This document shows, piece after piece, positions 2,057 through 25,007 of a stretch of 34,054 bases of DNA. The notes under the pieces were generated by a model. The model made no database searches. It was not told the DNA's origin and saw only the letters and a program-made list of their open reading frames with translations. This stretch comes from Bacteroidota bacterium (GTDB lineage Bacteria > Bacteroidota > Bacteroidia > Chitinophagales > Saprospiraceae), in NCBI GenBank assembly GCA_006226345.1, contig SBHD01000226.1:1-34054 (forward strand), written 5' to 3'. Within the stretch, counting starts at the first letter, position 1; every line of letters starts with the position of its first letter. A program made the position numbers and the translations under genes.

Positions 2057-2066
2057 TACGTTGATC

Positions 2067-2512: not shown

Positions 2513-2704
2513 ATGCCGATCGAAATCAAGGAACTCGTCATAAAAGTTACGGTCAGTGAAGACCGGTCCGCAAACAACCGTTCTGCCGGGAATGGGGAGC
2601 AGAGCGCGCGCCGTAAAAAAGGCGGTGCCAAAGAACGCAACGACCTGGTAGCGGAATGTGTGGAACAGGTACTGCAAATCCTTCAATCTAAAAACGAGCG
2701 CTAA
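2513..2704 (+). CDS. Small eCIS protein, DUF5908 family (Afp6-like position)
   Basis: A 63-residue protein beginning MPIEIKELVIKVTV, the characteristic start of the DUF5908 family of small proteins found in contractile injection loci. The N-terminal half looks like one or two beta strands, followed by a charged, Lys/Arg/Ser-rich linker (about 20-45) and a short amphipathic C-terminal helix (NDLVAECVEQVLQILQ). It occupies the slot of afp6, between the second tube gene and the LysM gene. The ATG at 2513 lies 2 bases after the preceding stop; a TTG two codons earlier is possible but less likely. Its stop overlaps the next start (TAATG). The molecular role is unknown. Confidence 0.8.
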   Translation: MPIEIKELVIKVTVSEDRSANNRSAGNGEQSARRKKGGAKERNDLVAECVEQVLQILQSKNER

Positions 2705-5529: not shown

Positions 5530-5973
5530 ATGAATCGTGCTTTTCTCGGCAGAGGCTGGTCTTTCCCCCCGACATTCACCCGTACACCGACCGGGGTAGT
5601 GATGCTGGAAGAAGAAGCAGATATCGCCTCCAGTCTGGAGATCCTGTTGAGCACGGCTCCTGGAGAGCGGGTGATGCTGCCCCAATACGGGTGCAACCTG
5701 GAAGAACTGCTTTTTGAGAGCCTGGATACCCGTATGAAGACTCTGATGGCCGATAAGGTACGTTCCGCCATTTTATACCACGAACCCCGGATCGAACTGG
5801 AAAAAGTAAAACTGGATGACAGCCGTGAGCTTGAAGGTGTGGTGCTGATCGAAGTGATCTATCGCGTCAAATCGACAAACTCCCGGTTCAACTTTGTCTA
5901 TCCCTTCTACAAAGAAGAAGGAACGGATATCAACCTGACCACCACTATTGATCTGCTGCCCGACAACGCCTGA
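5530..5973 (+). CDS. gp25-like baseplate wedge protein (Afp9-like)
   Basis: A 147-residue member of the GpW/gp25 family. T4 gp25 starts sheath polymerisation and is the most conserved baseplate wedge component. Family marks are FLGRGWSFPPTF near the N-terminus, EEEADIASSLEILLSTAPGE (about 28-47), the PQYGCNLEELLFE motif near 53-65, and DKVRSAILYHEPRIELEKV. The protein is full length and the start codon is conventional. The Afp11-like gene begins five bases after its stop, as expected for partners that assemble together in the wedge. Confidence 0.94.
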   Translation: MNRAFLGRGWSFPPTFTRTPTGVVMLEEEADIASSLEILLSTAPGERVMLPQYGCNLEELLFESLDTRMKTLMADKVRSAILYHEPRIELEKVKLDDSRELEGVVLIEVIYRVKSTNSRFNFVYPFYKEEGTDINLTTTIDLLPDNA

Positions 5974-9596: not shown

Positions 9597-12500
9597 GTAA
9601 AAAACCAGTTACCATATCAAAAAAGGTTGCTTTGAAGCCGGTGGAAGACTACTACCGACTACGCCGGGAAGGTATTGGCTTCATTGAACAACTGGGCAGT
9701 AGTGACTGGACGGACTATAATACCCATGACCCCGGTATTACTATTCTGGAAGCGCTCTGTTATGCGCTTACGGATCTGGGCTACCGCACCAGCTGGAAAA
9801 TCGAGGACATCCTGGCCTCTGCCGGCCCGGATGTTTACGCCAATCAACCCTTTTTTACCGCCCGGGATATCCTTACGGTCAACCCCTGGACACCCGACGA
9901 TTTTCGGCGCCTGCTTATCGACCTTGACGGTGTCCGGAATGCCTGGATATTCTGTAAGGAATGTGCCTGCGACCTGGTCTATTACGCATGGTGTGAAAAT
10001 GACAGCCTGCAATTGGCTTACGAGAAGCCGGCAAAGCCCTACCTCACACCCAAAAAGGTGGAGGTCCTTGGCTTGTATGATGTCATGCTTGAACTGGAGT
10101 CAGATCCGGAGTCCGGAGATCTGAATGACCGGAAAATTGAGCACCACTTTTCCATTTTTGACACTCAGGGAAAACCGCATACGGCAATCCTGGAATTGCG
10201 GTTTCCGGCCTGGGAACTGAGCGAGCAGCAGGAGTGGGAATTGTTTTTAAATAGTGATGCAGCATTTGCCGATCCCGATGCCAACCTGAACCTCACCATT
10301 CCGACGTTCAATGCCAGTCCGGATGAAGCCGGCATGATGACCGATCAGGATTTGCAGCGACACTGGCGTAAAGTGTTGTACCTGGATCTGGACCTGGAAA
10401 TTTTGCCGGGGGGCGATCATATAGTGATCTCGAATGCAGCGCTTCGTATTTTCGGGGATACTACTGTTCGGGAAAACATCACAGTGGCAGATCTGCTCAG
10501 CCTTTTCGCCGATAAATCGCCCAGCGGTTTTTTACAGCGCTACCGGACCAAACTAAAAAAGACGGCGGTTGCTGTAGTGGAGGCAAAAAAAAGCCTGCAT
10601 GCTCACCGGAACCTGGACGAAGACTTCTGCCGCATCCTGCCGGTAAGCATAGAGGAAGTGGCTGTTTGCGCCGATGTGGAAGTTACGCCTGATGCTGATA
10701 TCGAACTGGTCCAGGCAAAGATCTGGTTTGAGATTGAGCAGTATTTCAATCCGCCGATCCGGTTTTACACCCTGAAGGAGTTGATGGATGCCGGTATGCC
10801 GGTGGAAGATATCTTTAATGGTCCTGCGCTGAACAGCGGCTTTATTAAGCAGGAAGAACTGGAGGAGGCCGGGTTAAAAACCTTCCTGCATACCTCGGAT
10901 ATCCTCAACCGGTTGATGGATATTGAAGGGGTAGTTGCGGTAAATAACCTGCTGCTTACCAAATACGATGCTGTGGGTAATCCGGTTAAAGGTGCTGCCG
11001 ATCCGGTTGTTCAAAACGGTACCCTGGTATACGATCCGGACAAGGTGAGTGCCTTCTGGACGCTGGCTGTTTCCGGGCAGCATCAACCCCGGCTGTACTT
11101 TAATCTGTCCAGGTTCCTGTTCAGCAAAAACGGTCTGCCTTTCCTTCCCCGGATGGATGAGGCTGAAGACACCCTGGAGCAGCTGCGTGGTGCGGCAGAA
11201 CGCCCCAAGATCAAGAATGCGGCGAATGACCTGCCGGTACCCAAAGGCATTTTCCGTGATCCGGAAAACTATTTCGCCATGCAGCACAGCCTGCCTCTGA
11301 CGTATGGGGCCGGGCCGGCAGGATTGCCTTCCCACGCTTCGGTTGCCCGCAGGGCGCAGGCCCGGCAGTTAAAAGCATACCTGCTGGTTTTTGAACAATA
11401 CCTGGTCAACGCACTGGCCCAGGTGACCCATACCGCCAACCTGTTCTCCCTGGATGCTGCAGAAGTACATACCTATTTCAGCAAAGTGTTGGACAATTCT
11501 ATCGTGGCGCGATCGGAAGAGTTGCTGATCGCTGGCTACGATACGGCACTGCAGGAAATGGTCGAAACGGATATGGAGTTCCTGCTACGCCGCAACCGTT
11601 TTCTGGACCATATCATGGCCCGTTTCGGAGAACAATTCAGCGAGTATGCGCTCCTGCTGAACAATTTGTCAGGTAAAGCAGTCGCACTAAAACAACTGAT
11701 CTCCGATAAGCTGGGCTTTCTGAATGCCTATCCGGTCATCAGCCGCGACCGGGCAAAGGCTTTCAATTATACGGAAATGCCTTGTGCCCCTGAAAACTAT
11801 CCGGGTATCAAACGCAGGGTGAGCCTGTTGCTGGGGTATCCCGATCTGTTCTTTTCCTGGACCATCACCGGACCGGCTTTCGATCATTACAGTGTGGATT
11901 ATCAGCTCCTGGATAGTAGTGGCAATATTTGGCTGCAGGGCAACCTGACGGTGGTTACCTGGGAGCCGGACCAGGTAACTGCATTGGCTTATCATGCTAT
12001 CGTCATTCAGATGGTACAGCAGGATGCCTATGTCATTGAAGTGCAAAACGTGAGCGGGGTCGACCAGCATCGTGTGAAACTGCTGAATGCTGATGCAACA
12101 GACCTTGGCCAGCATCCGGACTGGCTGGCTACGCTGGCGGAGGCGCAGGCACTGGTGGAAGAGTTGGCCGCCTGGTCGGCCAATCACCGGGCTATGGTGG
12201 TGGAGCATCTGCTCTTGCGGCCCAAGTTTGCCGGTGATGCTCTTTTCCCGGCCTGCACTGAAGGCGGCTGCCATACCTGTGGGGACGAGGACCCGTATTC
12301 TTTCCGGCTGACATTTGTGATGCCCGGATGGGTACCCCCCTTTGATCAGGACCTGGATATGCGCGGTTTTGCAGACCGGACGATCCGCCAGGAAACCCCT
12401 TCACATCTATTACCAAAAGTTTGTTGGGTGGACAACCGGGGATTCCTCTTCGACTCCTGCCACGATCCGATACTGGATGATCTGGCCAAACTTTTACAGG

Positions 12501-13768
12501 ACGATCAGGCTACAGCCTATACGGAAGAAGAGGCCTGCCTGTGCGCACAGGAGATATTTCAGGCTTATGCAGCAGTTTTTGAACCCTGGTTCAGTGCCCT
12601 GAAAACGGAGCACTGGTTGCTGGCGGCCTGGAAAACAAAACTGGAAGCCCTGTTTGCCGGCTTCGCCCAGTCCGACCTTACGTGTACGGCTCCTCTGGAT
12701 GCAAATACGTGGGTGGCAATCGGAACTATGCTGGTAGACTATTTTGCTGATATTGCCCTGTATGGCTGGCAGTTTGAAAAATTTGAGGCCGCCTGGTGCG
12801 CCTGGCTGGATGCCAATGCAAAGTTTGACTGGACAGATGAACGGCTTCAGGAGCGCGTTGAGGCTATCCTGGAAGCCGGGTTACTGTCTTCAGGTAATAA
12901 CCTGGCGCCCGGACAACTTTGTACCTGTGCTGCGGCCATTTTGGCAGCATATGGAACAAAATTTTACCAATGGATGAAGACTGGGCTGGATGCCGGTAAG
13001 TCCCTGTCCGAACTCGGTGATATTCCGGATACTGCCGGTATTACGTTGTGTGCGGGTCTTTCCTTTAAGCCGGAAACCGCCGCTGAGATCGAGGCATTGC
13101 TCCGAGAGCGCTATACTGCCTATACCGAAGTTTCCTACCGGTTGTGGATACTCACCGATCTGCTTAGCAAACTGGAAAATATCTATCCGGGTGCAACTCT
13201 GCACGATTGTGATGACGGCAGTGATGACAATCCGGTTCGGCTGGGTCAAACCGCCCTTGGTACTTATGCCCGGCAGCAGTTACAGGCCAAAATCGTGACG
13301 AACAGATCAGTAGCAGCCCCGCCCCGGCAACCGGTGATCAGGCGGCTCAAACCTGCCCGGCAGAAAAGTGCCGGCGCGGCGAAGGGTAAGTTGACGCTAC
13401 AGGATAAGGCTGGAAATGGACCAGTGTCTGAAACGCCGGTAAAACCAACAAAACCGGTTTCAAAAACGAAAACACGAAGTAAAACTAAGGATACAAAGGC
13501 GGCTAAAACAGTGGCAGGAAGTACAGCGAAAGAAAAGACGCCGATGTCCGCAACTAAGACGCCGCCCGGGAAAAAGACCGCCAAGCCGGTAGCGGACAGC
13601 ACCTCAAAGCGAAAACCGGCCGGCAAACGAAGGTCCGAAAAGCCACCGGTAGCGGAGAAGCCTTCAAAGACCGCGGAGAAAGCCGGCAAGTCAACCGGCC
13701 CGAAGGCGGTTCGTAAGGCCAGGCCTCCCCGAAAACCGAAAAACCCAAAACCACCCAAATCTAAATAA
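9593..13768 (+). CDS. Baseplate wedge protein (Afp12-like) with basic C-terminal tail
   Basis: A 1391-residue wedge partner of the preceding protein. The N-terminus carries the Afp12/gp6-like motif (DYYRLRREGIGFIEQL, then WTDYNTHDPGITILEALCYA, about 20-60). A second conserved block at about 868-955 contains VVEHLLLRPK, YSFRLTFVMPGWVPPF and PSHLLPKVCWVDN. Two additions follow: a helical, Cys-containing region (about 978-1225), then a 147-residue tail (about 1245-1391) made almost wholly of Lys, Arg, Pro, Ala, Thr and Ser, resembling histone H1. The tail is in frame and ends the gene, so it is not a frameshift product. I start at ATG 9593 (MSKKPV), overlapping the previous stop; an upstream ATG at 9578 would add only five residues. 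Confidence 0.88.
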   Translation: MSKKPVTISKKVALKPVEDYYRLRREGIGFIEQLGSSDWTDYNTHDPGITILEALCYALTDLGYRTSWKIEDILASAGPDVYANQPFFTARDILTVNPWTPDDFRRLLIDLDGVRNAWIFCKECACDLVYYAWCENDSLQLAYEKPAKPYLTPKKVEVLGLYDVMLELESDPESGDLNDRKIEHHFSIFDTQGKPHTAILELRFPAWELSEQQEWELFLNSDAAFADPDANLNLTIPTFNASPDEAGMMTDQDLQRHWRKVLYLDLDLEILPGGDHIVISNAALRIFGDTTVRENITVADLLSLFADKSPSGFLQRYRTKLKKTAVAVVEAKKSLHAHRNLDEDFCRILPVSIEEVAVCADVEVTPDADIELVQAKIWFEIEQYFNPPIRFYTLKELMDAGMPVEDIFNGPALNSGFIKQEELEEAGLKTFLHTSDILNRLMDIEGVVAVNNLLLTKYDAVGNPVKGAADPVVQNGTLVYDPDKVSAFWTLAVSGQHQPRLYFNLSRFLFSKNGLPFLPRMDEAEDTLEQLRGAAERPKIKNAANDLPVPKGIFRDPENYFAMQHSLPLTYGAGPAGLPSHASVARRAQARQLKAYLLVFEQYLVNALAQVTHTANLFSLDAAEVHTYFSKVLDNSIVARSEELLIAGYDTALQEMVETDMEFLLRRNRFLDHIMARFGEQFSEYALLLNNLSGKAVALKQLISDKLGFLNAYPVISRDRAKAFNYTEMPCAPENYPGIKRRVSLLLGYPDLFFSWTITGPAFDHYSVDYQLLDSSGNIWLQGNLTVVTWEPDQVTALAYHAIVIQMVQQDAYVIEVQNVSGVDQHRVKLLNADATDLGQHPDWLATLAEAQALVEELAAWSANHRAMVVEHLLLRPKFAGDALFPACTEGGCHTCGDEDPYSFRLTFVMPGWVPPFDQDLDMRGFADRTIRQETPSHLLPKVCWVDNRGFLFDSCHDPILDDLAKLLQDDQATAYTEEEACLCAQEIFQAYAAVFEPWFSALKTEHWLLAAWKTKLEALFAGFAQSDLTCTAPLDANTWVAIGTMLVDYFADIALYGWQFEKFEAAWCAWLDANAKFDWTDERLQERVEAILEAGLLSSGNNLAPGQLCTCAAAILAAYGTKFYQWMKTGLDAGKSLSELGDIPDTAGITLCAGLSFKPETAAEIEALLRERYTAYTEVSYRLWILTDLLSKLENIYPGATLHDCDDGSDDNPVRLGQTALGTYARQQLQAKIVTNRSVAAPPRQPVIRRLKPARQKSAGAAKGKLTLQDKAGNGPVSETPVKPTKPVSKTKTRSKTKDTKAAKTVAGSTAKEKTPMSATKTPPGKKTAKPVADSTSKRKPAGKRRSEKPPVAEKPSKTAEKAGKSTGPKAVRKARPPRKPKNPKPPKSK

Positions 13769-13810: not shown

Positions 13811-16800
13811 ATGGTACCCACTAAGTATAATTATCCGTTTTTTGAGGCGAATCAGGTACTCACCAACCGGCACCTCAACCAACTCTTCTCCTATCTTGAC
13901 GAGCAGGAGCGGCTGACCCGTGCCAACCTGATCGGGATCGGTATTGTCTGTGGCCTGGACATCAGTCTGGAAGGGACAGCAGCTGCACCGGTTATCCGGA
14001 TTACGAGGGGTTGCGGCGTCACGTCGCAAGGCTACCTGATCGTGGAGCCCGAGGATGTGCTGTTGACATCCTACCAACCGACCCTGTACCAGACGCCGGA
14101 TGATCTGCCCTACGAATCATTCAAAGACCCGGGTACAAATACTGATTACCCAATGTGGGAGTTGTTCCCGGCCGGAGAGCCCAATACGACGCCATTGGGC
14201 AATACTGCGGGGTTCCTCGACGACAAAGCGGTTCTGCTTTTCCTTGAACTCAAGCGGGAAGGTTTGCGGAATTGCAGCCCTAATAACTGTGATGACAAAG
14301 GTGCGGAGGTCACCATCACGCTCCGGCGTCTCCTGATCCGGGTGGATGATCTGGCCAAGGTCATCGCCACTGCGAACCAACAATCGACATCGTTGACACC
14401 TGCGGATATCGAGGCCTCCCTGCTTGCCCGGTTGAACCTGCCCGACCTCCGGATGCCGCGTTATGATGTGCCCAACTCGGAGCCGGCGACCTCTCAACAG
14501 GTCCTGGGAGGCTTCCTGGCAGTTTTTCCGGGAGAAGAGCTTGTTAAAAATACAGGAGATGCGCTGTCTGCTGCCTATCAGGCTTTTCAACCCATCCTGG
14601 AGGAGGCCTTCCCGACAGATCCGTTTGCCGGCTTTAAGAATGCCTTTGGCTTTTTGGAAAATACGCCGGCCAATCAGACCCAGGTGCGGTTTTTACAGTA
14701 CTACTACGACTTCTTTGATGACCTGTTGCGGGCATATGATGAGTTTCGCTGGGCCGGGTTTGACCTGATGTGCGCCTGCTGCCCGCCAGAAGGATTATTT
14801 CCGCGTCACCTGATGTTGGGGGTCTTATATCCGGACACCGTGACCAATCCATCCATATATCGCCATACGTTCCTGGCATCGGCAGCTATCAGCGGCTGTG
14901 AAGAGCGGTCGGAAGCATTACTGTTGTTGTTCCGGCGCCTGGTTGAAATGATTGGCGCCTTTACCAATACGCCAACCTTGCGTCCCGGACAGTCCAATAC
15001 CAAGTTAGATCCGCAGATCCGGGTAACGCCAAGTAAACTGGGCGATATGGCGTTGTCGGAAAAAGCCATTCCGTATTATTACAAACAGACCGGCACGCCG
15101 CCGCTCTACCGGGTTTGGAGCGCTGAAAAAGCCCGCCGGAACCGGGCCAATCAGAATTTTTCCTATCGCTCCAATGAGTACAGCCCCGCTGCACCAGGCT
15201 TTATTGAAGAAGCGCTCCGGTTTGACCTGGAGCCCAGCAATTTTCTCCGGATCGAGGGGCACCTGGGAAAAAATTACCAGCAGGCCCTGAAGACGCTGCT
15301 GTACCTGAAGGCACAGTATCGCCTTCCCATCGAGATCATTGCGCTGCGTACGGGTGCATTTGACGAAAATGCACCTATCGACCTGAGCAAGGAAAACTGT
15401 CGTTTTCAGGATTTGGATGCACAATACAGTGCCATTCGCGAGGAGTTGCGCTGTTTTCTGTACAAACAACTGGCCTACCTGTACGACCCGCCGGTAAACC
15501 AAACTGATACAGGAACAGCGCCGGCACCTTCCAAGTATGCTTTTTTCTACGACTTTGATAAAAAGTTTCAGGTCCGTTTTGGCAGTACCGGCTATTATTA
15601 TGAGCGTCTCCTGACGCTTGTAGATGGCAAAACACCTTATGCCAGCCCAAGTGGCGCTGTCAATGCAATAGACAATATCAACCCGGTAAGTGCGATCCTG
15701 TATATTCTGCCCTTTTTGCACCGGATGCATGAAATTTTGCCGGAGGCCCTACAGAACTTCAGCCTGGATGAATTTGAATTGCGTTATGGTGATCTTCAGC
15801 AGGTTGCAGCAGCCCTTGAGGCCAAAGCAGACGCTACTATCCAGGCCACCAGTATCAAGAATGCCTTGTTCAATTGGGAAGAGGTGGATGACCGAATCGA
15901 GGCGATCCTCTTTCATTGCCGGCCGGATGCCCTGAAGGCATTGATCAAGGAATACATAAAACGGATAAAGGAGGCAAAGCAAAAGCAGTTTTTCAGCTAT
16001 TTTGCCCGTAAGCATCCCGGACTCCAGCATAAAGGCGGGGTGCCGGTTGGAGGAACGTTTATCCTGGTATACCATGATGATCCGGATCCGGTTCCGCCGA
16101 CCTTCAACCCGAACCTGAACTGGCCGTTCCAGGTATTTACACCGAACCTTGCAGCCGGAGTAAACTTGGCTAATAATCAAAACTTCTTCCAGGCACTATA
16201 CCGGATCAATGCCAATCCCAGCCTGGCAACCGATCCGGATGTCCGTACCGTACTGGGCTCTTTCATTGGGCAGGTGTATAACCCGAATTTGTCGTATTTC
16301 CCGCCCTGGCAAAATCCTCCCACCGATGAGGTAGAAAAGATCCTGGATGAGACAGTGGATGAACTGACGGATGGTACGATTATCGCTGACTTTTTCCTTC
16401 CCTACATCTGTTGTTCGGATTGTTCACCGGTACAATATGTACTGCCGTCTTCGCCTCTTGGGGTATCTATTGAAAGCGGTTGTACAGATAAAAACAGGCA
16501 GGCAGAGATCGTTGTGAAGCCGCAGGGGGGAGTAGCACCTTTCAGCTATAACCTGAACTCCTCCGATTTTAAACCGCTTACAGGCAACCTGGTCCTGACG
16601 CCGGGTACGCATACCCTGGTTGTCCGGGATGATACCGGTGCCGAGACGACGGTGCAGACCATCGAAGTGCCCGAGCCAATCACTTTTGGCGCTATTGCCT
16701 ATGATTGTCTTGCTACTTCTGATGAATACGTTGCTGTGGTAGAGATCATGGGCGGGGTACCACCCTACACTGCCGATATGGGTACGATCGATCAGGTCAA

Positions 16801-18160
16801 AAAGGTGTTTGTCAGCGGGCCGTTGCCAACCGGTAAAGTAAACGTGGTGGAGATCAAGGACAGCCGACTGTGCAAAGCGACATTGGAACTGGAACATGAC
16901 TGCCAGGATGCGCTTGCCCTTGCGGTTCAGGTTGGCTGTACCAGTGCAAATGATGTAGCGCCGGTAGCATTGTCGCCCAGTGGCGGCGACGGTAAATACG
17001 AAATTCGCATAGGATCATCATCCGACTTCAAGCCCATTTCGGGGCCGATCACACAAAACCTGGGTGCAGGGTCCTACACGATTCAGTTGCGCGACGGAAG
17101 CGGGGCAACTACTGCTATCAATGTGGTGGTTCCGAAACAACTCAAAGCAGTCGTGCGGGAGTACACCTGTGAAGGTACGGAGCAGTATTTCGCGACTATC
17201 CTGATCACCGGTGGTGTCCAGCCGTATATGGTGAATGACAAGACGGTGTCGGATAAATATGTTACAGACCTGTACAAGAGTGGTGAGGTTGCTGAGCTGA
17301 GCATTCTGGATGCCAATAAATGTGTTGCCAATGTGACCTTGCAGCATTCCTGTGCCGATGCGTGCGGACTGCCTTGCAACGGATTGTCCATGCGTTGTCA
17401 CTACCGGCTCTGGATACAGCCACAGGATGCCGACAAGCGGTTTATCCAGTATGACTGTAGCCCGGTCGTTGTACGGGTAAACGGTCAGGATGTTAAACTG
17501 GGTTCAGCTGAAAACGCTTTCCGGTTCACTGTTGACGGATTAAATTCTGATTTCCACAACCTGATGGGTGGTGCGGTTAAGGTCCTGAACACAGCGATTG
17601 AAAAAAGCCTGAAGGAAATGGGCAACAGCCAACTGCAACTTACCTATGAACCCCTGTCTGACCCCTACCAGACCTTGCAAATAGAGTATTTTGAATGCGA
17701 GACATTTAACCTGGAGTTTGAATTTGTCGTTGCTACATCCTTCCAGTCCGGGAAATTCCATGTCCGCTACACCAACGAGGCCGATCCAAACGGTACGCAA
17801 TTCAATGGGGTTATCCTGACGAACCTGGAAACCGGCGAACAGGCCTACATCCCGGTTGCTTTATGTCAGCGCCGTGACCTGTGCCAGAATACGCCGTACA
17901 AGGCTGTTTGTGATGCTAAAATACCGAAACTGGCAATAGCAGTAGAACCCTTGGGGAATAATCGTTTTGCATTGATCGCAGAGCTGACCAATTTGCCTGC
18001 CAGTGAGATTGCTGCCTGGATATGGGATGTGCCGAACGGTGACAGGCTGGTGTACACCGGCCAGGAAGTCGAGGCATTTATTGAAAAGCCGGATGGTTTG
18101 ATCCGTTTGACTGCCATTACACAAAAAGGATGTGTGGGACATGCCGATTTCCCGCTCTGA
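13811..18160 (+). CDS. Large SprB-repeat protein in the tail-fibre (Afp13) position
   Basis: A 1449-residue protein I do not recognise as a named family. The N-terminal 80 residues (YPFFEANQVLTNRHLNQLF, then IGIVCGLDIS) look like a baseplate-docking region of the type seen in Bacteroidota eCIS loci, but this is from memory. Residues about 80-880 are mixed helical. About 886-1185 are two tandem units of roughly 150 residues, each with two Ig-like SprB-type modules (GGVAPFSYNLNSSDFKPL; SSDFKPISGPITQNLGAG). The C-terminus is beta-rich and ends with a PKD-like module. SprB-type repeats normally occur on surface adhesins, so target-cell binding is a good inference. It lies between the Afp12-like and tape-measure genes, exactly where afp13 (fibre) sits. 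No signal peptide is seen, as expected for a cytoplasmically assembled particle. Confidence 0.75.
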   Translation: MVPTKYNYPFFEANQVLTNRHLNQLFSYLDEQERLTRANLIGIGIVCGLDISLEGTAAAPVIRITRGCGVTSQGYLIVEPEDVLLTSYQPTLYQTPDDLPYESFKDPGTNTDYPMWELFPAGEPNTTPLGNTAGFLDDKAVLLFLELKREGLRNCSPNNCDDKGAEVTITLRRLLIRVDDLAKVIATANQQSTSLTPADIEASLLARLNLPDLRMPRYDVPNSEPATSQQVLGGFLAVFPGEELVKNTGDALSAAYQAFQPILEEAFPTDPFAGFKNAFGFLENTPANQTQVRFLQYYYDFFDDLLRAYDEFRWAGFDLMCACCPPEGLFPRHLMLGVLYPDTVTNPSIYRHTFLASAAISGCEERSEALLLLFRRLVEMIGAFTNTPTLRPGQSNTKLDPQIRVTPSKLGDMALSEKAIPYYYKQTGTPPLYRVWSAEKARRNRANQNFSYRSNEYSPAAPGFIEEALRFDLEPSNFLRIEGHLGKNYQQALKTLLYLKAQYRLPIEIIALRTGAFDENAPIDLSKENCRFQDLDAQYSAIREELRCFLYKQLAYLYDPPVNQTDTGTAPAPSKYAFFYDFDKKFQVRFGSTGYYYERLLTLVDGKTPYASPSGAVNAIDNINPVSAILYILPFLHRMHEILPEALQNFSLDEFELRYGDLQQVAAALEAKADATIQATSIKNALFNWEEVDDRIEAILFHCRPDALKALIKEYIKRIKEAKQKQFFSYFARKHPGLQHKGGVPVGGTFILVYHDDPDPVPPTFNPNLNWPFQVFTPNLAAGVNLANNQNFFQALYRINANPSLATDPDVRTVLGSFIGQVYNPNLSYFPPWQNPPTDEVEKILDETVDELTDGTIIADFFLPYICCSDCSPVQYVLPSSPLGVSIESGCTDKNRQAEIVVKPQGGVAPFSYNLNSSDFKPLTGNLVLTPGTHTLVVRDDTGAETTVQTIEVPEPITFGAIAYDCLATSDEYVAVVEIMGGVPPYTADMGTIDQVKKVFVSGPLPTGKVNVVEIKDSRLCKATLELEHDCQDALALAVQVGCTSANDVAPVALSPSGGDGKYEIRIGSSSDFKPISGPITQNLGAGSYTIQLRDGSGATTAINVVVPKQLKAVVREYTCEGTEQYFATILITGGVQPYMVNDKTVSDKYVTDLYKSGEVAELSILDANKCVANVTLQHSCADACGLPCNGLSMRCHYRLWIQPQDADKRFIQYDCSPVVVRVNGQDVKLGSAENAFRFTVDGLNSDFHNLMGGAVKVLNTAIEKSLKEMGNSQLQLTYEPLSDPYQTLQIEYFECETFNLEFEFVVATSFQSGKFHVRYTNEADPNGTQFNGVILTNLETGEQAYIPVALCQRRDLCQNTPYKAVCDAKIPKLAIAVEPLGNNRFALIAELTNLPASEIAAWIWDVPNGDRLVYTGQEVEAFIEKPDGLIRLTAITQKGCVGHADFPL
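16466..17365 (+). repeat. Tandem duplicated SprB-like repeat units within the 1449-residue protein
   Basis: Two units of about 150 residues (about 886-1033 and 1034-1185). Matched segments include SSDFKPLTGNLVLTPGTH versus SSDFKPISGPITQNLGAGSY, LVVRDDTGAETT versus IQLRDGSGATT, and VVEIMGGVPPYTA versus TILITGGVQPYMV. Each unit ends in a conserved HxC motif (EHDC, QHSC). The DNA has diverged, so the duplication is old. Confidence 0.8.
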
Positions 18161-18208: not shown

Positions 18209-19609
18209 ATGACAAATATTATCCGGCAACAAACATTTCTCTTTGATTGGCACGGCGCCGGTGAAGACGCGGCCGCCATCCAGCAACGGGCAACAGCCCT
18301 TTGCCGGGAGAAATTGTTGCCGGCACTGGAAGCCGCACTGGAACAGCTGGCGCCTGATCACACACACTGGTGCCTGGACCGCCTGGAACTGGACCTTGGA
18401 TCATGGTCTCCCGCGGCACTGGATACTGAACTGGTGCCAGCATTGACCAAAGCACTGGAGGAGCAGGTTGAACGAACGGTGGTGTATTTCGGGCAGGAGA
18501 CGGACACCGAAAAAAACGGTCTGGTCCGGAAGACATCCATCCCTGGTACAGCAGCCAGCGTTTTTGTCCTTTTTTTGGAAACCGGCCGGTTACCCTGGTA
18601 TTATAAGTTGCTGGAAGGACAAAGCCTGGAGCAGGCGCTGGAAGCACAATTGTTTGCCGGTTCCGGAGCAATAGCGGCCTTTCAGCCTGAATTCCTGCGT
18701 GTCATTCGATCGCCGGATGTCCGGAAAAGGCTGGTCTGGCAGTTTTCTGCCGGTTTCCTACATCGTTTGCTGGCGCTTCAATCCGGGCAGGCAGAGTCGG
18801 TGGTACAGGCGCTGCTGGATAGTCTGGAACAAGTGCCGGTATATTTTCAGAAAAAAGCAGCGTACCTGGTATGGCAGGCGGCATTCGAAACTTTAGCGCA
18901 AAACCAGGAATCATTTTCAGCCAATAAGCTTCGGGCGGTTTGTGCAAAACACCTGATGGAGGAATTAGAGGATATGCCAGAGCTTAGTGACCGGAAAGCG
19001 TTCTGGCCGAATTTGTTTTCCGGTACAACAGATATGGATTTTTCTGAAACACCGGAAGCGATACCTGATACCACCCGGCTGCACTATTCCCGATCCGATA
19101 CAGAGGTTGCGGAGCCTGTTTACCTGGACCATGCAGGTATTATACTGCTACACCCGTTTTTACCCCGGCTCTTTGAAGCGCTGGAGATCGCTGATGACAC
19201 TTCGATCCGGGCACCTGGACGTGCCCTCGCCTTGCTGCACTATGCGGCGACGGGCCAGGAGCCGACTCCCGAATATGAATTGCCACTGGCCAAGATCCTG
19301 TGTGGTATACCGGTTGAAAAGCCGGTGGATACCACTAAAGCACTTACTGATAAAGAAAAAGAAGAAGTAACTGGTCTGCTTCAGGCAGTGATCAAACATT
19401 GGGGCGCCCTGGGAAATTCAGTCCCGGACGCCTTGCGTGGCACCTTCCTGGTACGACCGGGGAAACTTTCCCGTAGAGGAGACGAGTGGCTGTTACAAGT
19501 TGAAGCCCAAACCCTGGATATCCTGCTGGACCAACTTCCTTGGAGTATTTCGGCAATCCAAACACCCTGGATGTCGTCGATGCTTTGGGTAGAATGGGGC
19601 AACCCCTAA
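18209..19609 (+). CDS. CIS tape measure protein (Afp14-like)
   Basis: The 466-residue protein predicted to set tube and sheath length. Family signs are the N-terminal IIRQQTFLFDW with DRLELDLG near 57-64, the block HAGIILLHPFLPRLFEAL at about 308-325, and the C-terminal LPWSISAIQTPWMSSML and VEW ending. These are the recurring features of the contractile injection system tape-measure family (Afp14/Pvc14). It has no transmembrane segments and a helical, Gln/Leu/Ala-rich middle suited to an extended ruler. It sits between the fibre-like gene and the cargo gene, 43 bases before the latter. Particle length should scale with this protein; I cannot derive the length from sequence alone. Confidence 0.9.
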   Translation: MTNIIRQQTFLFDWHGAGEDAAAIQQRATALCREKLLPALEAALEQLAPDHTHWCLDRLELDLGSWSPAALDTELVPALTKALEEQVERTVVYFGQETDTEKNGLVRKTSIPGTAASVFVLFLETGRLPWYYKLLEGQSLEQALEAQLFAGSGAIAAFQPEFLRVIRSPDVRKRLVWQFSAGFLHRLLALQSGQAESVVQALLDSLEQVPVYFQKKAAYLVWQAAFETLAQNQESFSANKLRAVCAKHLMEELEDMPELSDRKAFWPNLFSGTTDMDFSETPEAIPDTTRLHYSRSDTEVAEPVYLDHAGIILLHPFLPRLFEALEIADDTSIRAPGRALALLHYAATGQEPTPEYELPLAKILCGIPVEKPVDTTKALTDKEKEEVTGLLQAVIKHWGALGNSVPDALRGTFLVRPGKLSRRGDEWLLQVEAQTLDILLDQLPWSISAIQTPWMSSMLWVEWGNP

Positions 19610-19652: not shown

Positions 19653-22600
19653 ATGAAAACAGGTTCTGAAAAATCTTCCACTACTTCCAGTACGTCTGCG
19701 CAACAGGCGTCGAAACAGCCTTTTCTGACAAAGGCGAGTGGTGGCGGTTTTCTGGAGCCGACCGTTCAGATGAAAATGACGGTAAACCGGCCCGGGGACA
19801 AGTTTGAACAGGAGGCAGATCGAATGGCTGAGAAGGTGGTACGGATGCCGGAGGAAAAAGTGCAGAAAGCGGAGACGGAGCGGATACAGAAAGCAGGGGC
19901 GCCGGAAGAGAAAATCCGGAAAGCGGAAGACGAGCGGCTGCAAAAGGCGGATATGCCGGAAGAGCAGGTCCAAAAGGCCGCTATGCCGGAAGAAAAAATA
20001 CAGAAAGCGGAGGAGGAACAGGTACAGAAAGCCGATATGCCCGACGAGCAGGTCCAAAAGGCCGAAGATGAAAAACTCCAAAAGCAGGAAGAAGAACCGG
20101 TCCAGCGAAAAAGCGGAGACGGTGCGCCTGCAGTGAATGCCAATACCCAATCTGCCATCCGGCAAAAATCCTCGGGTGGGCAGCCGCTTGCCGCCGACGT
20201 GCGCAGTTATATGGAACCCCGTTTCGGGGCCGATTTCAGCCAGGTGCGTATTCACAATGACCAGGAAGCCGCCGGCCTGAGCAACCAGCTCTCGGCCCGG
20301 GCTTTTACCTATCAGAATAATATCTTTTTCTCCCGCGATCAATATAAGCCTGAGACCAGTGAAGGCAAGCAACTCCTGGCCCACGAACTCACCCATACCA
20401 TACAGCAAGGCCATGCCATTCAACGCAGTACTGCCGTAACCACCACTGCTTCTCCGCCGCCTATTCAACGGCTGGGTGTGAGCGATGCGCTGGACTATTT
20501 TGCAGATAAAGCCTATTACATACCCGGTTTCCGGATGCTGACGATCGTATTGGGTTTCAATCCGATCAATGGTGCCAGGACCGACCGCAGTGCTGCGAAC
20601 ATCCTGCGGGCAGTGATCGAACTGATCCCGGGAGGGGCATTCATTACGCAGGCGCTTGAAAACCACGGGGTGTTTGCTGAAGCTGGTGCCTGGATAGAAC
20701 AGCAACTCAGCACCCTGGGCGATATCGGATCGCAGATCGTTTCCGGGCTGAACCGGTTCCTGGACTCTCTGAGCTGGAGAGATATTTTTGATCTCGGTGG
20801 CGTATGGGACCGCGCCAAGCGCATCTTCACAGACCCTATCGGCCGGCTCATTTCCTTTGGGAAGGGTGTGGTGAAAGACCTGCTCACACTGGTCAAAAAT
20901 GCCATTCTCCGGCCCCTGGCAGCCCTGGCACAGGGCACCCGGGGCTACGACCTGCTCCGGGCCTTGCTGGGTGAAGACCCTATTACCGGCGAGCCGGTAC
21001 CCCGCACGCCCGATACGGTTATTGGCGGCTTTATGAAACTGATCGGTCAGGAAGAGGTCTGGGAGAACATCAAGCGTGGTAACGCCATTCAGCGCGCCTG
21101 GGCCTGGTTCCAGGGCGTACTGGCAGGCCTGATGAACTTTGTCCGCACCATTCCCGGAAGGATCATCAGCACGATCACCTCCCTGACTTTCCGGGATATT
21201 ATCACAGTAGCGGGTGCTTTTGTGAAGGTGGTCAAGTCCTTTGCCAATATCGCCTTTGAGTTTATCAGTTGGGGCATCAACCAGGTGATTGGCTTGCTGG
21301 AGATCCTGTTTGATGTGGTCGCACCGGGCATCATGCCGTATATCCGGAAGGCCAAAAGTGCCTTTAACACCATCCTGAAAAACCCGATCGCTTTTGTCGG
21401 TAACCTGATCCGGGCCGCCAAACTAGGCTTCCGGATGTTTGCCAATAATATCCTGGAGCACCTGAAAACCGCCCTGATCAAATGGCTGGTAGGGCCTCTG
21501 GCTGCCGCGGGTGTGTATATTCCCAAGTCGTTCAGTCTGCTGGAGATTGTCAAATTGATCCTCTCCGTGCTGAACCTGACCTGGACAAATATTCGCAAGA
21601 AGCTCCTTAAGTTCATTCCAGAGCCGGTACTGCAGGGTTTGGAAAAGACCTTTGATATCCTGGTCACGTTGGTGAAGGAAGGTCCGGCTGCAGCCTGGGA
21701 AAAGATCAAAGGCGAGCTGATCGAACTGAAGGATATGCTTATCAGTGAGATCACCGGCATGGTCGTAACCCAGATCGTCAAGGCGGCTGTCACAAAACTC
21801 GTGACGATGTTTAATCCGGTAGGTGCGGTTATTCAGGCCATCATCGCCATTTATGACACCATCACCTTCTTCATTGAGCGGATCAAACAGATCGCGGCAG
21901 TTGTAGGTTCATTCATTGATTCCATCGCTGCCATTGCCGCCGGAAAAGTAGGCGCGGCTGCCAGGAAAGTGGAGAGCACTATGGCCAATACGCTGGTGGT
22001 GGTACTGGCCTTCTTGGCCAGGTTTGCCCGGCTGGGCGGGATACCGAAGAAGATCGTGGGGATCATCCGGCGTATCCGCAAACCGATCGACAAAGCACTG
22101 GATAAGATTGTGGGGTGGATCATGAAGGTACTTAAGGGCGCCAAAGACAAGGTGGTCAGTTTGTTCATGCGGCCCAGGCCGTTCAAGGCCGGCAAAGGAA
22201 GCCACCGGTTGTTTGCTGATGGAGACGAGGTGATGCTGGCCAGCAGCCCGGCCCGGCGGTTGGGTAATGCGCTTACAACTTTTCGGACCAATGACCCGCC
22301 ACCCTCTGCCGCAACGCTCAAGCTGATTCAAAGTGCCCATGACAAAGGCAGTCAGCTCAAGAAGAATATTGTCAAAAAGGATCCCAAACTCTTATCTAAA
22401 AATGAGGAATTACGGGATGACATTGTATCGTTGCTGATCCGGATCATGTATGAAACAGGTGGGACGAAAAAGAAAAAAATGGCCCCTGTTACCATAACAT
22501 TTGAAGCTAAGGGGAATAAGGGGGAATTTAACCGTCAGCTAAAATTGCAGGAAACCGAGATCAACAAGATGCAGGTTGGGGACTGGCAGAAAAACAGGGC

Positions 22601-23051
22601 CCGGTTTGTTGCATTCGGACGGAACAAGAAAGAGGATACCGCATCAGAGCGGAAAGCCGCACTGACGCAAAAACTGGTAAATAATCCGAAAAAGGCTATA
22701 TCTGCTCTGGAAAGCCAGGGACTTCTGAAAGCGAGTTCAAAGGCAAGGCTGGAGGCGATTTTCTCCGATCCTAATATTCCTGCCGGTCAAAAGGATAAGG
22801 CAGCAGCATCTATTATAAAACAGATCATGGATTCATATTCCGGCAAAAACCTGGCTGTTTTGCATACACTGGATCAGGTAGCGGGCGGGGCCGCGACGAT
22901 TTATGGTGACGATGCCTCTATATTTGGAGGACGTTACGAGAATTCTACGATTGGAAGTCAATGGTATCCTGCGAGGATCGCCATCATTGATAAAGCAACG
23001 CTAAACGTGGACCCCAAGGTGAAAATTAAAAGTGTAACATTGAAATCTTAA
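19653..23051 (+). CDS. eCIS cargo toxin: DUF4157 leader, Ntox15 (Tde1-like) DNase tip
   Basis: A 1132-residue predicted effector. Residues 40-65 hold the EQEADRMAE leader motif of eCIS cargo, and 65-148 a run of short MPEEKVQKA-type repeats. Residues 177-250 are the DUF4157 domain with a zincin-like HELTH at 244-248. About 260-850 is a very long hydrophobic/amphipathic helical region, possibly for loading or membrane passage. The tip (about 945-1120) matches polymorphic toxin type 15: GEFNRQLKLQETEINKMQVG, the HxxD motif H1071-T-L-D1074 followed by QVAGG, and STIGSQW at 1098-1104. In Agrobacterium Tde1 this domain is a type VI DNase needing HxxD. GC falls sharply near residue 890, so the tip looks exchanged. 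The neighbouring immunity-type gene supports the call. Activity is inferred, not shown. Confidence 0.87.
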   Translation: MKTGSEKSSTTSSTSAQQASKQPFLTKASGGGFLEPTVQMKMTVNRPGDKFEQEADRMAEKVVRMPEEKVQKAETERIQKAGAPEEKIRKAEDERLQKADMPEEQVQKAAMPEEKIQKAEEEQVQKADMPDEQVQKAEDEKLQKQEEEPVQRKSGDGAPAVNANTQSAIRQKSSGGQPLAADVRSYMEPRFGADFSQVRIHNDQEAAGLSNQLSARAFTYQNNIFFSRDQYKPETSEGKQLLAHELTHTIQQGHAIQRSTAVTTTASPPPIQRLGVSDALDYFADKAYYIPGFRMLTIVLGFNPINGARTDRSAANILRAVIELIPGGAFITQALENHGVFAEAGAWIEQQLSTLGDIGSQIVSGLNRFLDSLSWRDIFDLGGVWDRAKRIFTDPIGRLISFGKGVVKDLLTLVKNAILRPLAALAQGTRGYDLLRALLGEDPITGEPVPRTPDTVIGGFMKLIGQEEVWENIKRGNAIQRAWAWFQGVLAGLMNFVRTIPGRIISTITSLTFRDIITVAGAFVKVVKSFANIAFEFISWGINQVIGLLEILFDVVAPGIMPYIRKAKSAFNTILKNPIAFVGNLIRAAKLGFRMFANNILEHLKTALIKWLVGPLAAAGVYIPKSFSLLEIVKLILSVLNLTWTNIRKKLLKFIPEPVLQGLEKTFDILVTLVKEGPAAAWEKIKGELIELKDMLISEITGMVVTQIVKAAVTKLVTMFNPVGAVIQAIIAIYDTITFFIERIKQIAAVVGSFIDSIAAIAAGKVGAAARKVESTMANTLVVVLAFLARFARLGGIPKKIVGIIRRIRKPIDKALDKIVGWIMKVLKGAKDKVVSLFMRPRPFKAGKGSHRLFADGDEVMLASSPARRLGNALTTFRTNDPPPSAATLKLIQSAHDKGSQLKKNIVKKDPKLLSKNEELRDDIVSLLIRIMYETGGTKKKKMAPVTITFEAKGNKGEFNRQLKLQETEINKMQVGDWQKNRARFVAFGRNKKEDTASERKAALTQKLVNNPKKAISALESQGLLKASSKARLEAIFSDPNIPAGQKDKAAASIIKQIMDSYSGKNLAVLHTLDQVAGGAATIYGDDASIFGGRYENSTIGSQWYPARIAIIDKATLNVDPKVKIKSVTLKS
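19845..20096 (+). repeat. Short charged tandem repeats in the DUF4157 cargo protein
   Basis: About ten units of 8-10 residues (65-148), each ending in V/I/L-Q/R-K/R, with units such as MPEEKVQKA, EDERLQKAD and MPDEQVQKA. The DNA is visibly repetitive (ATGCCGGAAGA recurs). Repeats of this type are common between the leader and the DUF4157 domain of eCIS cargo. A coiled-coil or extended spacer role is inferred. Confidence 0.85.
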
Positions 23052-23064
23052 AACTCGACGTGGT

Positions 23065-23640
23065 ATGATCCCTTATGATGGATTTAAGGAGCGGTATTAC
23101 GGCAGTAAGAAGAATTGGCGTGGATTTACGGATGAGGAGAAAGCGGAGATCGAGCGGCTGCTTCCAGAGGATGTTTCCGGTTTTCTGCTGGCGGAAGGCC
23201 TGTCCAGCTATGGGAATAATTTCCTTTGGACAACCCATCCGGGTTTATTGGCAGATGTTTTGGATGCCTGGGGATTGAAGCAGGATAAATGTTTTGCCTT
23301 TATGCGCTCTGCTTTTGGGGCGTGCATTTATTATGCGGAGAACGAATATTTTTATCTGGATCCATTGTTTGGGAGGATCGTGTCAATGGACGATAATTTT
23401 TACCTGGCGTTAAATTATTCCCTGACCATTGATGAAATATTGGAAAACGGCTTCTTCCTGGATGTTTTCAATAACCTGGAAATGGATACTGCACAGTTGA
23501 AGCCTGATGAGATCCTGGCTTTTATCCCGGCACTACCCATGGGGGGCAGTTTTGAAACCTCGAAAGTCGAAAAAGTAAAAATGGCGGAGCATTTAATGTT
23601 CCTTGCCCAGCTTTTTGAAGGGAAGGCTAAAAAGGTTTAA
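23065..23640 (+). CDS. Tdi1-like immunity protein (GAD-like plus DUF1851)
   Basis: A 191-residue predicted antitoxin for the upstream DNase tip. The N-terminal half resembles the GAD-like domain (LPEDVSGFLLAEGLSSYGNN then FLWTTHP at about 34-59). The C-terminal half resembles DUF1851: FMRSAFGACIYY at 79-90, LDPLFGRI at 98-105, FIPALPMGG at 153-161 and EHLMFLAQL at 175-183. This two-domain layout is that of Tdi1, the immunity protein of the Agrobacterium Tde1 DNase, and it sits 13 bases after a Tde1-like toxin. It is cytoplasmic, with no signal peptide. The gene is AT-rich (35-40% in counted lines), matching the toxin tip but not the flanking genes. Family assignment is from recognised motifs, not a search. 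Confidence 0.85.
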   Translation: MIPYDGFKERYYGSKKNWRGFTDEEKAEIERLLPEDVSGFLLAEGLSSYGNNFLWTTHPGLLADVLDAWGLKQDKCFAFMRSAFGACIYYAENEYFYLDPLFGRIVSMDDNFYLALNYSLTIDEILENGFFLDVFNNLEMDTAQLKPDEILAFIPALPMGGSFETSKVEKVKMAEHLMFLAQLFEGKAKKV

Positions 23641-23669: not shown

Positions 23670-25007
23670 ATGGCTGGTAAAAATAACGCGAACACCTCCT
23701 CCCTCTCCACCGCTCTCACCTACCTTCATTCCGTCCTGTCCGGACGGCTGAAAGTTCATTTGGGCAAAGAGGCGCAGGTAGAAGTGCAGGGAACCGCCTA
23801 CTACGAAGACGACTCGCCCTTCGCCCAATTTATCCAGCACCATCAACCCAATTTCGAAGAATATATCGTGCTGCTCCTGGCATTGGCGCCACATATCCAG
23901 CCGCATTTTTTTAACCAGGTCCTGGGTGAATATTACCCCGAAGGCGGTGAACTACCGGAGTTCGGCGGATTACGTATCGGCAACCACCGAGGTATACTGC
24001 CTACCGGAGAAACCGCACAGTTCGTACTGGCCGGTAATGATCTGGAAAAACGCCTGGCCGTTCAGCAGTTGTTCCGTTCGGAACACTGGTTCTCACAAAA
24101 GCAGGTCCTCTGGCTCGAACCGGTGCGCGAAGGCGAACCGATCATGAGCGGCAGGTTGATCCCGGACCCTGAGTTTGTTGAGCGCCTGACCCTGGGTACG
24201 GTCAGTCGTCCACGTTTCAGCACAGATTTTCCGGCTGAATACATCACCACCGAAATGACCTGGGATGATCTCGTGTTACATCCCACTACTGTACGGCAGA
24301 TCCGGGAGATCGAGCACTGGATCAAGCACCATGCCACACTCCTTGATGACTGGGGGATGGGCAAGCGCGTGAAACCGGGATACCGGACGCTGTTTTATGG
24401 TCCGCCCGGGACCGGTAAAACACTGACGGCAACACTGCTAGGTAAATACACCGGAAAGGAAGTGTATCGCATCGACCTGTCGCGCGTCGTTTCCAAATAT
24501 ATTGGCGAAACTGAAAAGAACCTTTCCAGGCTGTTCGACAAGGCCGAGAATAAAAACTGGATACTGTTCTTTGACGAAGCCGACGCGCTGTTCGGCAAAC
24601 GCACCGGAATTCGGGATGCGCACGATAAGTATGCCAACCAGGAGGTGTCTTATCTCCTGCAACGGATTGAGGCCTTCAACGGGTTGGTGATCCTGGCTTC
24701 CAATCAGCGCGCCAACGTGGACGAGGCATTTACCCGCCGGTTTCAGGCGATCATTCATTTTCCGATGCCCCGCCCGGAAGAACGGCTCGAGCTCTGGCAA
24801 AAGGTGTTTCCGGAACAGCTCAAGATCGCTAATGATATCGACTGGAAGCAGGTGGCTGCCAGGTATGAACTCACAGGCGCCGGTATTGTCAATATCGCCC
24901 ACTACTGTGCGGTGGAAGCTCTGGCCGACCAAACGCACCGGCTCGACCGCCAGCGGCTGGAAGCCGCTATCCTGCGGGAATTTGTGAAAGAAGGTAAGAT
25001 GGTATAG
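23670..25007 (+). CDS. AAA+ ATPase (Afp15-like)
   Basis: A 445-residue AAA+ protein; Afp15/Pvc15 members are needed for particle assembly or cargo loading. The AAA core has Walker A GPPGTGKT at 244-251, Walker B ILFFDEADALFG with D302-E303, the sensor region ILASNQ and an Arg-finger-like TRRF. The N-terminal ~200 residues are family specific (LTYLHSVLSGRLKVH, SEHWFSQKQVLWLEP). It is full length and soluble. It is the last gene of the array, 29 bases after the immunity gene; GC returns to the operon level within the first 60 bases. The stop lies only 7 bases from the convergent regulator gene's stop, with no obvious hairpin in between. Confidence 0.93.
   Translation: MAGKNNANTSSLSTALTYLHSVLSGRLKVHLGKEAQVEVQGTAYYEDDSPFAQFIQHHQPNFEEYIVLLLALAPHIQPHFFNQVLGEYYPEGGELPEFGGLRIGNHRGILPTGETAQFVLAGNDLEKRLAVQQLFRSEHWFSQKQVLWLEPVREGEPIMSGRLIPDPEFVERLTLGTVSRPRFSTDFPAEYITTEMTWDDLVLHPTTVRQIREIEHWIKHHATLLDDWGMGKRVKPGYRTLFYGPPGTGKTLTATLLGKYTGKEVYRIDLSRVVSKYIGETEKNLSRLFDKAENKNWILFFDEADALFGKRTGIRDAHDKYANQEVSYLLQRIEAFNGLVILASNQRANVDEAFTRRFQAIIHFPMPRPEERLELWQKVFPEQLKIANDIDWKQVAARYELTGAGIVNIAHYCAVEALADQTHRLDRQRLEAAILREFVKEGKMV

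Follow-up and report, generated by a model that had tools for sequence, protein, structure and literature searches.

The locus and its putative toxin-immunity pair

Contig SBHD01000226.1 of a Bacteroidota bacterium from the family Saprospiraceae (GCA_006226345.1) carries an operon for a predicted extracellular contractile injection system (eCIS), in which the gene for a putative cargo toxin is followed directly by a gene for a small immunity protein of the Tdi1 type (Table 1). The window, meaning the whole stretch of 34,054 nucleotides (nt) analysed here, whose positions are used throughout, begins at the contig end, and the genome to which it belongs comprises 5.2 Mb and is an estimated 99.4% complete. 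The predicted cargo starts with a long, charged, low-complexity N-terminus, continues through an eCIS_core leader (DUF4157, PVC-metallopeptidase) and a long helical carrier, and ends in an Ntox15 tip. An earlier note made from the letters of this DNA had described a leader, a nuclease tip and an immunity gene 13 bases further on, and this observation is confirmed. The eCIS_core domain occupies residues 178-254 (105.5 bits against a Pfam cut-off of 22) with the HELTH motif exactly at residues 244-248, the distance between the two genes follows from the coordinates of the open reading frames (ORFs), and a profile search of the tip, which that note had proposed, finds Ntox15 at residues 957-1115, the score being 55.6 bits when the whole protein is searched and 65.8 bits when the query is limited to its last 260 residues (cut-off 22.5). 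HTLD, the HxxD signature, also stands where it had been placed (1071-1074), and the other two tip motifs are at 1075 (QVAGG) and 1098 (STIGSQW).

Among six aligned Ntox15-like tips, the residues H142 and D145 (of the HxxD motif), G149, G150, N52, R53, G172, and W175 (alignment numbering) are invariant in all six. Searching the sequences of the Protein Data Bank (PDB) with the tip returns the Bacteroidales Ntox15 effectors 8fzz, 8fzy, and 8g0k, with E-values from 1.9e-8 (8fzz_A) to 2.6e-6. When an AlphaFold2 model of the tip, which is of low confidence (mean predicted local distance difference test score (pLDDT) 68.2), is compared by Foldseek, the three leading matches are all to 8fzy (Tde1) chains (probability 1.00, E 1.2e-3 to 5.9e-3, template modelling (TM) scores 0.39-0.49), and the others among the best 50 of 68 matches have a probability of 0.15 or less; an E-value of 0.001 is reached by none. 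The NCBIfam profiles give no match to the cargo protein. Judged by its sequence, the tip is a predicted Tde1-type DNase domain, the resemblance being far beyond chance.

The C-terminal part of the immunity protein matches T6SS_Tdi1_C (PF08906) at residues 123-183 (40.4 bits against a Pfam cut-off of 27.4). Most of the protein (residues 7-184) aligns with residues 5-188 of 8g0k_B, a crystallised Tdi1 homologue (phmmer, E 1.4e-8), and 8fzz_B is matched as well (E 5.9e-8). Within the genome, eCIS_core, Ntox15, and Tdi1_C have a single match each, and all three lie at this locus. A promoter serving the immunity gene alone was looked for with a Bacteroidetes-type motif; TAnnTTTG occurs at 22919 with no upstream TTG, and no promoter is claimed.

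The carrier gives less to work with. Its AlphaFold2 model is nearly all-helical with a mean pLDDT of 49.3, a quality insufficient for a fold search, and a profile of the carrier region (starting within the leader) matches mostly helical or designed proteins and aureolysin in the PDB, all weakly (best E 6e-4). By eye, carrier residues ~290-840 contain units that recur, in which a 'GxxPITG'-like turn links the helices, and these may be internal repeats. A glycine zipper like that described for Tde1 (PMC10240207) is unsupported, a single GxxxG being present in the cargo, at residue 488.

Table 1. Features of the eCIS operon and its cargo genes in the window.
Position	Strand	Feature	Evidence or remark
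130..1563	+	Contractile sheath protein	Profile match
1622..2510	+	Pair of gp19-like tube proteins (overlapping ORFs 1622-2056 and 1992-2510)	Profile match
2704..3411	+	CIS tube protein (CIS_tube)	Profile match
3427..5199	+	VgrG-like spike (Phage_GPD and Phage_base_V)	Profile match
5218..5487	+	PAAR spike tip	Profile match
5530..5973	+	gp25-like baseplate wedge protein	Profile match
5979..9596	+	Baseplate_J protein, Alg11-like	PDB 7aeb_G, E 6.6e-148
9578..13768	+	Baseplate wedge protein, Alg12-like	PDB 7aeb_A, E 5.1e-99
13811..18160	+	Tail fibre, homologue of the AlgoCIS tail fibre	PDB 9wt0_a, E 3e-62; residues 7-604 and 702-892
18209..19609	+	CIS tape measure protein, upstream edge of the cargo slot	367.5 bits
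19653..23051	+	Putative cargo toxin of 1132 residues; a charged N-terminus of low complexity is followed by the eCIS_core leader, a long helical carrier, and the Ntox15 tip	
19830..20102	+	Charged 'EEKVQKAE'-type repeats before the leader, residues ~60-150	Read from the translation
20184..20414	+	eCIS_core leader (DUF4157, PVC-metallopeptidase), HELTH at residues 244-248	105.5 bits
20463..22124	+	Carrier region, partly hydrophobic, common to other family cargoes up to residue ~825	
22443..23640	+	GC-poor cartridge (tip and immunity gene), probably exchangeable	GC 0.455 and 0.447
22521..23000	+	Predicted Ntox15 DNase domain of the Tde1 type (HxxD motif, residues 1071-1074)	
23065..23640	+	Tdi1-type immunity protein, 191 residues	13 bases downstream of the cargo gene
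23670..25007	+	AAA ATPase, downstream edge of the cargo slot	AAA 100.2 bits

The injection machine

The machine encoded around the pair is related to AlgoCIS, the eCIS of Algoriphagus machipongonensis. The PDB chain 7aeb_G, an AlgoCIS baseplate J protein, is taken to be Alg11, and 9wt0_a is taken to be Alg19 from the description of the 9WT0 entry, which according to its authors contains the AlgoCIS tail fibre on the baseplate wedge. Matches of the gene at 13811-18160 to SprB and BiPBP_C were weak and have been set aside, the PDB match identifying the tail fibre; a weak PHROG match and weak NCBIfam matches were likewise left unused. Elsewhere in the same genome, near the end of contig C385, a Pvc16_N cap gene is followed by a gene whose product matches 7adz_1A, the cap adaptor of AlgoCIS (E 1e-10), and this pair is probably the missing 5' part of the window operon. 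With its Alg11- and Alg12-type baseplate, Alg19-type fibre, and cap adaptor, the machine is assigned by homology to the AlgoCIS type (subtype Ib). The ATPase downstream of the pair, which the earlier note had called an assembly ATPase, is better described from its position and domain as a putative cargo loader, by analogy with Pvc15 (PMC11495950).

Several further features of the window and its genome were observed. As called, the two gp19-like ORFs share 65 bases, and the second may start further downstream. Near the end of contig C318 (19241-19867; locus L129), a 208-residue ORF gives another tape-measure match, C-terminal in kind, which may be a relic or may mark the border of a further CIS locus. 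Behind the ATPase on the reverse strand (25015-25668) lies what appears by eye to be a LuxR/NarL-type response regulator, which could regulate the eCIS; Response_reg and GerE occur in the pooled profile tally of a gene set that contains this gene. Outside the operon, positions 30460-34008 encode a fungalysin (M36) metallopeptidase with a Por_Secre_tail sorting domain.

The cargo slot in related genomes

The space between tape measure and ATPase was surveyed in the family of the window, where the tape-measure profile CIS_TMP is found in 117 of 398 genomes. From these hits we picked 60 loci, mostly the best-scoring full-length ones, and added the window, giving 61; one locus (L125, genome G342) was chosen in the knowledge of its Ntox15 domain, and another (L127) is a second site in the genome of the window. 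Genes are the ORF calls of our own script, and some of the small ones may be chance ORFs. An AAA ATPase is reached in 37 loci, and in 30 of these 37 complete slots at least one leader protein is present. Thus the position before the ATPase, which the earlier note had considered notable for a toxin-immunity unit, is the usual place for cargo. Of the other seven complete slots, six are empty (in one, L124, the ATPase lies on the opposite strand) and one (L084) holds reverse ORFs only; in many of the 24 loci where no ATPase was reached, the contig or the fetched stretch probably ended. The complete slots together hold 52 leader proteins, 32 of which are followed by a same-strand gene of fewer than 350 residues. 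Counting complete and incomplete slots, 41 of 43 gaps between toxin and small gene measure 50 bp or less (overlaps included), and the motif HExxH is present in 69 of the 70 leader proteins of the 61 loci.

A sample of the phylum, which includes some members of the family, has CIS_TMP in 75 of 395 genomes, and from it we picked 40 loci outside the family, mostly by score. The ATPase is reached in 36, of which 19 hold a leader protein, 16 are empty, and one has reverse ORFs only. The slot is therefore used in other families too, and is fuller in the loci from the family of the window (30/37 versus 19/36). In one family of this sample (f38; loci L134, L136-L138, L140, L141, and L145), leader cargoes of 1030-1214 residues stand directly before the ATPase, and, unlike the window, these loci have no immunity-sized gene.

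Exchangeable tips and their partners

Four family loci (L079, L117, L071, and L118) have carriers that align with that of the window at 47-55% identity, the alignments ending at residues 824-836. When the comparison is divided into blocks of 75 residues, identity amounts to 34-76% up to residue 825 (32/74 to 57/75 in the blocks after residue 150), falls to 10/63-16/64 (16-25%) in the block 826-900, and lies at 0-31% beyond residue 900 wherever at least five positions align, the last seven residues excepted. The tips mounted on these related carriers are Ntox4 (L079) and Endonuclea_NS_2 (L071 and L118), the fourth being lost at a contig end (L117). Base composition changes as well: the GC content is 0.455 in the tip and 0.447 in the immunity gene, compared with values of 0.544 for the carrier, 0.546 for the ATPase gene, and 0.50-0.62 for the other genes measured, and only 3 of 660 overlapping 1100-base windows have a GC content below that of the cartridge.

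The leader proteins of the 61 loci yielded 62 tips for scanning, the others having no end within the stretch or being too short. The families matched include Endonuclea_NS_2 (5 tips), Ntox15, AHH, WHH, and Colicin-DNase (3 each; the WHH and Colicin-DNase matches overlap at least in L116), and single matches to Ntox16, Ntox4, Gln_deamidase_2, Tlde1, PT-HINT, and others. Next genes were scanned where they lie on the same strand, lack a leader, and encode ~100-367 residues, which left out genes beyond this size range or on the opposite strand and loci with no next gene; the 41 genes kept include SUKH (SMI1_KNR4; 5), Tdi1_C (3), Imm49 (2), Imm11 (2), and Imm43 (1). Tips such as WHH/colicin-DNase, AHH, and Tlde1, and partners such as SUKH, Imm11, and Imm49, are typical of interbacterial toxins. 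As a control, 63 small genes beyond the ATPase (63 of 65 listed) were scanned, and no immunity family is among the families listed for them (25 of 48); single weak ones may be among the other 23, and no p-value for the contrast with the next genes is therefore used. Where both members are known, partner fits tip: Tdi1 follows Ntox15 in the window, L099, and L125, and in L113 AHH is followed by Imm11. Taken at the level of sequence, the locus is a polymorphic toxin system, with a constant N-terminal part, exchangeable tips, and a downstream immunity gene that varies with the tip. One leader protein (L069, 10661-15766, reverse strand) has the PT-HINT pretoxin domain near its C-terminus; HINT is described by Zhang 2012 (PMC3482391) as never found with the PVC (Photorhabdus virulence cassette) system.

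The Ntox15/Tdi1 combination itself recurs. Within the order, 11 genomes out of 396 have an Ntox15 match, that of the window included, and three pairs of leader-Ntox15 toxin and Tdi1 gene stand behind a tape measure, namely the window, L125, and L099 (where the stretch stops before an ATPase). In L125, which is the same locus as L016 and L130, the order is eCIS_core with Ntox15, Tdi1, a peroxidase-like gene, eCIS_core with Ntox16, DUF6714, and ATPase, whereas L099 combines a leader protein with Ntox15 (98.9 bits) and a Tdi1_C gene. The three toxins share 27-48% and the three immunity proteins 28-31% identity. The carrier of L125 matches that of the window only in the leader part, and the pair is therefore mounted on at least two different carriers. 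A further Ntox15/Tdi1 pair (L017) has a 485-residue frame with no BLAST match to the leader of the window, and longer Ntox15-like tips sit on related carriers in L018 and L019, with next genes of no Pfam family. A contig scan with three Ntox15 tips confirmed only two loci, both already known. The region L016:9660-14503, with its haem-peroxidase-like gene, Ntox16-tip cargo, and DUF6714 gene, points to DUF6714 as a possible new immunity family for Ntox16.

Relation to known systems

The closest known counterparts of the pair belong to the type VI secretion system (T6SS), i.e., the Tde/Tdi pairs of Bacteroidales (8fzy, 8fzz, and 8g0k) and Tde1/Tdi1 of Agrobacterium, which share with the window the Ntox15 HxxD motif and an adjacent Tdi1-type gene. 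The likeness holds by profile, by sequence (at a distance), and weakly by fold; the difference is one of delivery, the toxin of the window presumably travelling by eCIS behind a leader and a long carrier. TafE/TaeI of Acinetobacter baumannii (PMC9973263) is likewise an Ntox15 HxxD DNase with an adjacent immunity protein, but it is a T6SS effector acting on fungi and its immunity protein is longer (286 residues).

AlgoCIS shares with the window not only Alg11, Alg12, tail fibre, and cap adaptor homologues but also the use of DUF4157 cargo. One of its cargoes, Cgo1, has a predicted metalloprotease C-terminus (PMC8894135), whereas the cargo of the window ends in a predicted nuclease and is accompanied by an immunity gene, and immunity is not mentioned in the main text of that paper. 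The AlgoCIS cargo tags, 12695 and 12690, are two and three tags away from that of alg19 (12705), a spacing that would suit cargo placed in the corresponding slot.

Two studies from 2024 are relevant here, one of further eCIS-associated toxins (EATs; Danov et al.) and one of a haloarchaeal system (Zachs et al.). The combination of a constant DUF4157 leader with a variable tip was described for the PVC-metallopeptidase toxins (Zhang 2012, PMC3482391), where Table 2 lists Ntox15, with Imm-SUKH and without Bacteroidetes. EAT-immunity pairs (e.g., EAT5) were reported by Geller 2021, and further EATs were tested in 2024 (PMC11297309). In the contractile injection system of Halogeometricum borinquense (PMC11566945), toxins in mid-cluster, some of them with DUF4157, have downstream immunity partners and were validated with these by co-expression; unlike the window, this system is archaeal and membrane-bound, and has cluster genes without an obvious toxin domain. 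No report of an eCIS-borne Ntox15/Tdi1 pair was found among the papers listed, in a search that covered the subscription literature thinly, and the pairs of Geller 2021 may include one. The novelty claimed in the earlier note was thus overstated, eCIS toxin-immunity pairs having been reported in 2021 and Ntox15 behind a leader tabulated in 2012. The cartridge principle is already published (Zhang 2012, Geller 2021, Zachs 2024), and the pair of the window is a clear new case of it.

How general immunity genes are in such systems is described differently in the literature. A notable share of PVC-metallopeptidase systems is said to have no immunity genes (PMC3482391), and most antibacterial EATs lack adjoining ones, which Geller et al. 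regard as a puzzle (PMC8213781). A 2023 review states that no immunity proteins are known for EATs and that their existence is unclear (PMC10598620), and a 2026 review treats cognate immunity genes as the rule (PMC12961389).

Proposed mechanism and alternative explanations

The explanation preferred here, with a probability of about 0.85, is that the eCIS cargo is polymorphic and carried by an AlgoCIS-type machine, and that the pair is its DNase/immunity cartridge, which can be swapped for others. The domains, catalytic motif, gene order, machine type, boundary between carrier and tip, GC-poor cartridge, and recurrence in relatives are observed, and from these one may propose how loading, DNase activity, neutralisation, release, and attack on a bacterium would proceed. 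The charged N-terminus and the eCIS_core leader would direct the cargo to the particle, and the AAA ATPase would load it into the tube. Pvc15 loads PVC cargo via N-terminal disordered signal peptides and is reported to unfold a tagged cargo (PMC11495950), and Cgo1 and Cgo2, both DUF4157 cargoes, fill the tube of AlgoCIS (PMC8894135). The long helical carrier would be the constant part and the last ~200 residues the exchangeable Ntox15 tip, which would cut DNA through its HxxD site. In Bacteroidales, the Ntox15 domain acts as a DNase that depends on Mg and on the HxxD motif, and Tdi splits the nuclease fold (PMC10470768); the Tdi1-type protein would similarly hold the nuclease inactive in the cytosol of the producer, most likely wedged into the nuclease fold, and would be needed there because the DNase is made in the cytosol of the producer itself. 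Taken together, these findings on Pvc15, Cgo, and Tde/Tdi would imply a DNase that is dead in the producer, a cargo threaded into the tube, and, after injection, a toxin that refolds and cuts DNA in the target. After AlgoCIS has fired on bacteria its tube ends in the periplasm (PMC13314943), and the carrier with its hydrophobic segments is a candidate for the passage from periplasm to cytoplasm, though its model is too poor to judge. Tip and immunity gene would move as one cartridge within the slot between tape measure and ATPase.

Several results weigh against this explanation or limit it. An immunity partner is not universal, since 20 of the 52 leader proteins in complete family slots have no small next gene, and outside the family just 11 of 29 leaders have one within 100 bp; ten of these 11 genes were scanned, of which one is SUKH and nine match no Pfam family. 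The difference between 32/52 in the family and 11/29 outside it (p 0.06) is not claimed, the rules for a small gene differing (fewer than 350 residues in the family; 75-399 residues and a gap of at most 100 bp outside). Many tips match nothing and 10 of the 62 are short enough to include the leader, at least 29 of the 41 next genes are without a match to SUKH, Tdi1_C, Imm49, or Imm11, and next genes of no Pfam family occur even behind recognised tips (L071, L079, and L120). As for the immunity protein of the window, the earlier note had given it a GAD-like plus DUF1851 layout, of which the C-terminal Tdi1_C part stands and the GAD-like label (PF08887; 22.4 bits, E 1.2e-4, under the Pfam cut-off of 25) is borderline. 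Furthermore, AlphaFold-Multimer is reported to have given inaccurate predictions of Tde/Tdi complexes (Bosch et al., PMC10470768). With regard to the target, purified AlgoCIS had no effect on any bacterial strain tested in 2022 (PMC8894135).

That the toxin acts on bacteria or kin, as the earlier note proposed from the need to protect the producer, does not follow from that need, because TafE acts on fungi and nevertheless has an immunity protein. The same cartridge could thus serve against a eukaryote (a protist, alga, fungus, or invertebrate), immunity being required since the DNase is stored in the cytosol of the producer. Deletion of TafE affects only antifungal activity although TaeI is present (PMC9973263), the eCIS effectors known before 2021 are toxic to eukaryotic cells (PMC8213781), and the immunity protein of the window matches the NCBIfam TaeI model, weakly (38.2 bits, far under the equivalog cut-off of 450). 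Speaking for bacteria instead are the tail fibre, homologous to the Alg19 fibre by which AlgoCIS binds and punctures the bacterium Echinicola pacifica (PMC13314943), and the interbacterial-type cartridges in the slots of relatives (tips including WHH/colicin-DNase, AHH, and Tlde1, and partners including SUKH, Imm11, and Imm49). On these grounds, a bacterial target is favoured at odds of roughly two in three, being likely and unproven, and a eukaryotic one is the less probable choice, to be taken seriously; the cartridge and a bacterial target are, jointly, probable.

It is rather unlikely that the system is anchored, in the mode of T6SS-iv or the haloarchaeal system, or acts in a dying producer, so that the pair would serve contact-dependent killing or resemble a toxin-antitoxin pair. 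The fibre does also match All3314 (7b5h_AA), of the thylakoid-anchored Anabaena system. Moreover, the haloarchaeal system with mid-cluster DUF4157 toxin-immunity pairs is membrane-bound (PMC11566945), and AlgoCIS, metamorphosis-associated contractile structures (MACs), and T6SS-iv are grouped as one subtype (PMC8894135). Against anchoring, however, the baseplate, tail fibre, and cap adaptor homologues are of the AlgoCIS type, AlgoCIS being free in the cytoplasm and never anchored, and no gene for an anchor stood out in the window, no search having been aimed at anchors. Very improbable, finally, is a chance neighbourhood in which the small gene would be orphan immunity against a foreign T6SS. 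Commensals of the human intestine often carry orphan tdi genes (PMC10470768), but Ntox15 and Tdi1_C occur once each in this genome and adjoin, the pair is directly adjacent again on different carriers in L099 and L125 and in the Ntox15/Tdi1 pair of L017, and the low GC content covers tip and immunity gene and neither carrier nor ATPase.

A more far-reaching version of the cartridge explanation is tentative and less likely than not. In it, the Saprospiraceae slot would be a hot spot for antibacterial cartridges, the particles would be free and receptor-guided, immunity would be shared by kin, and the ATPase would strip the Tdi1-type protein from a toxin that refolds in the target. Such stripping at loading is conceivable because proteins of the Tdi1 type split the nuclease fold and Pvc15 is reported to unfold cargo.

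Implications

If true, stripping by the ATPase would answer the puzzle of Geller et al. by indicating how a producer can make antibacterial eCIS toxins and survive. Both halves of the pair have relatives with known structures, and thus activity, neutralisation, and interface can be tested by established assays, while the slots of related loci offer further candidate toxin-immunity pairs. The finding bears on whether eCIS of this type attack bacteria and on how their makers survive their own cargo, and the pattern seen across the family makes this question testable.

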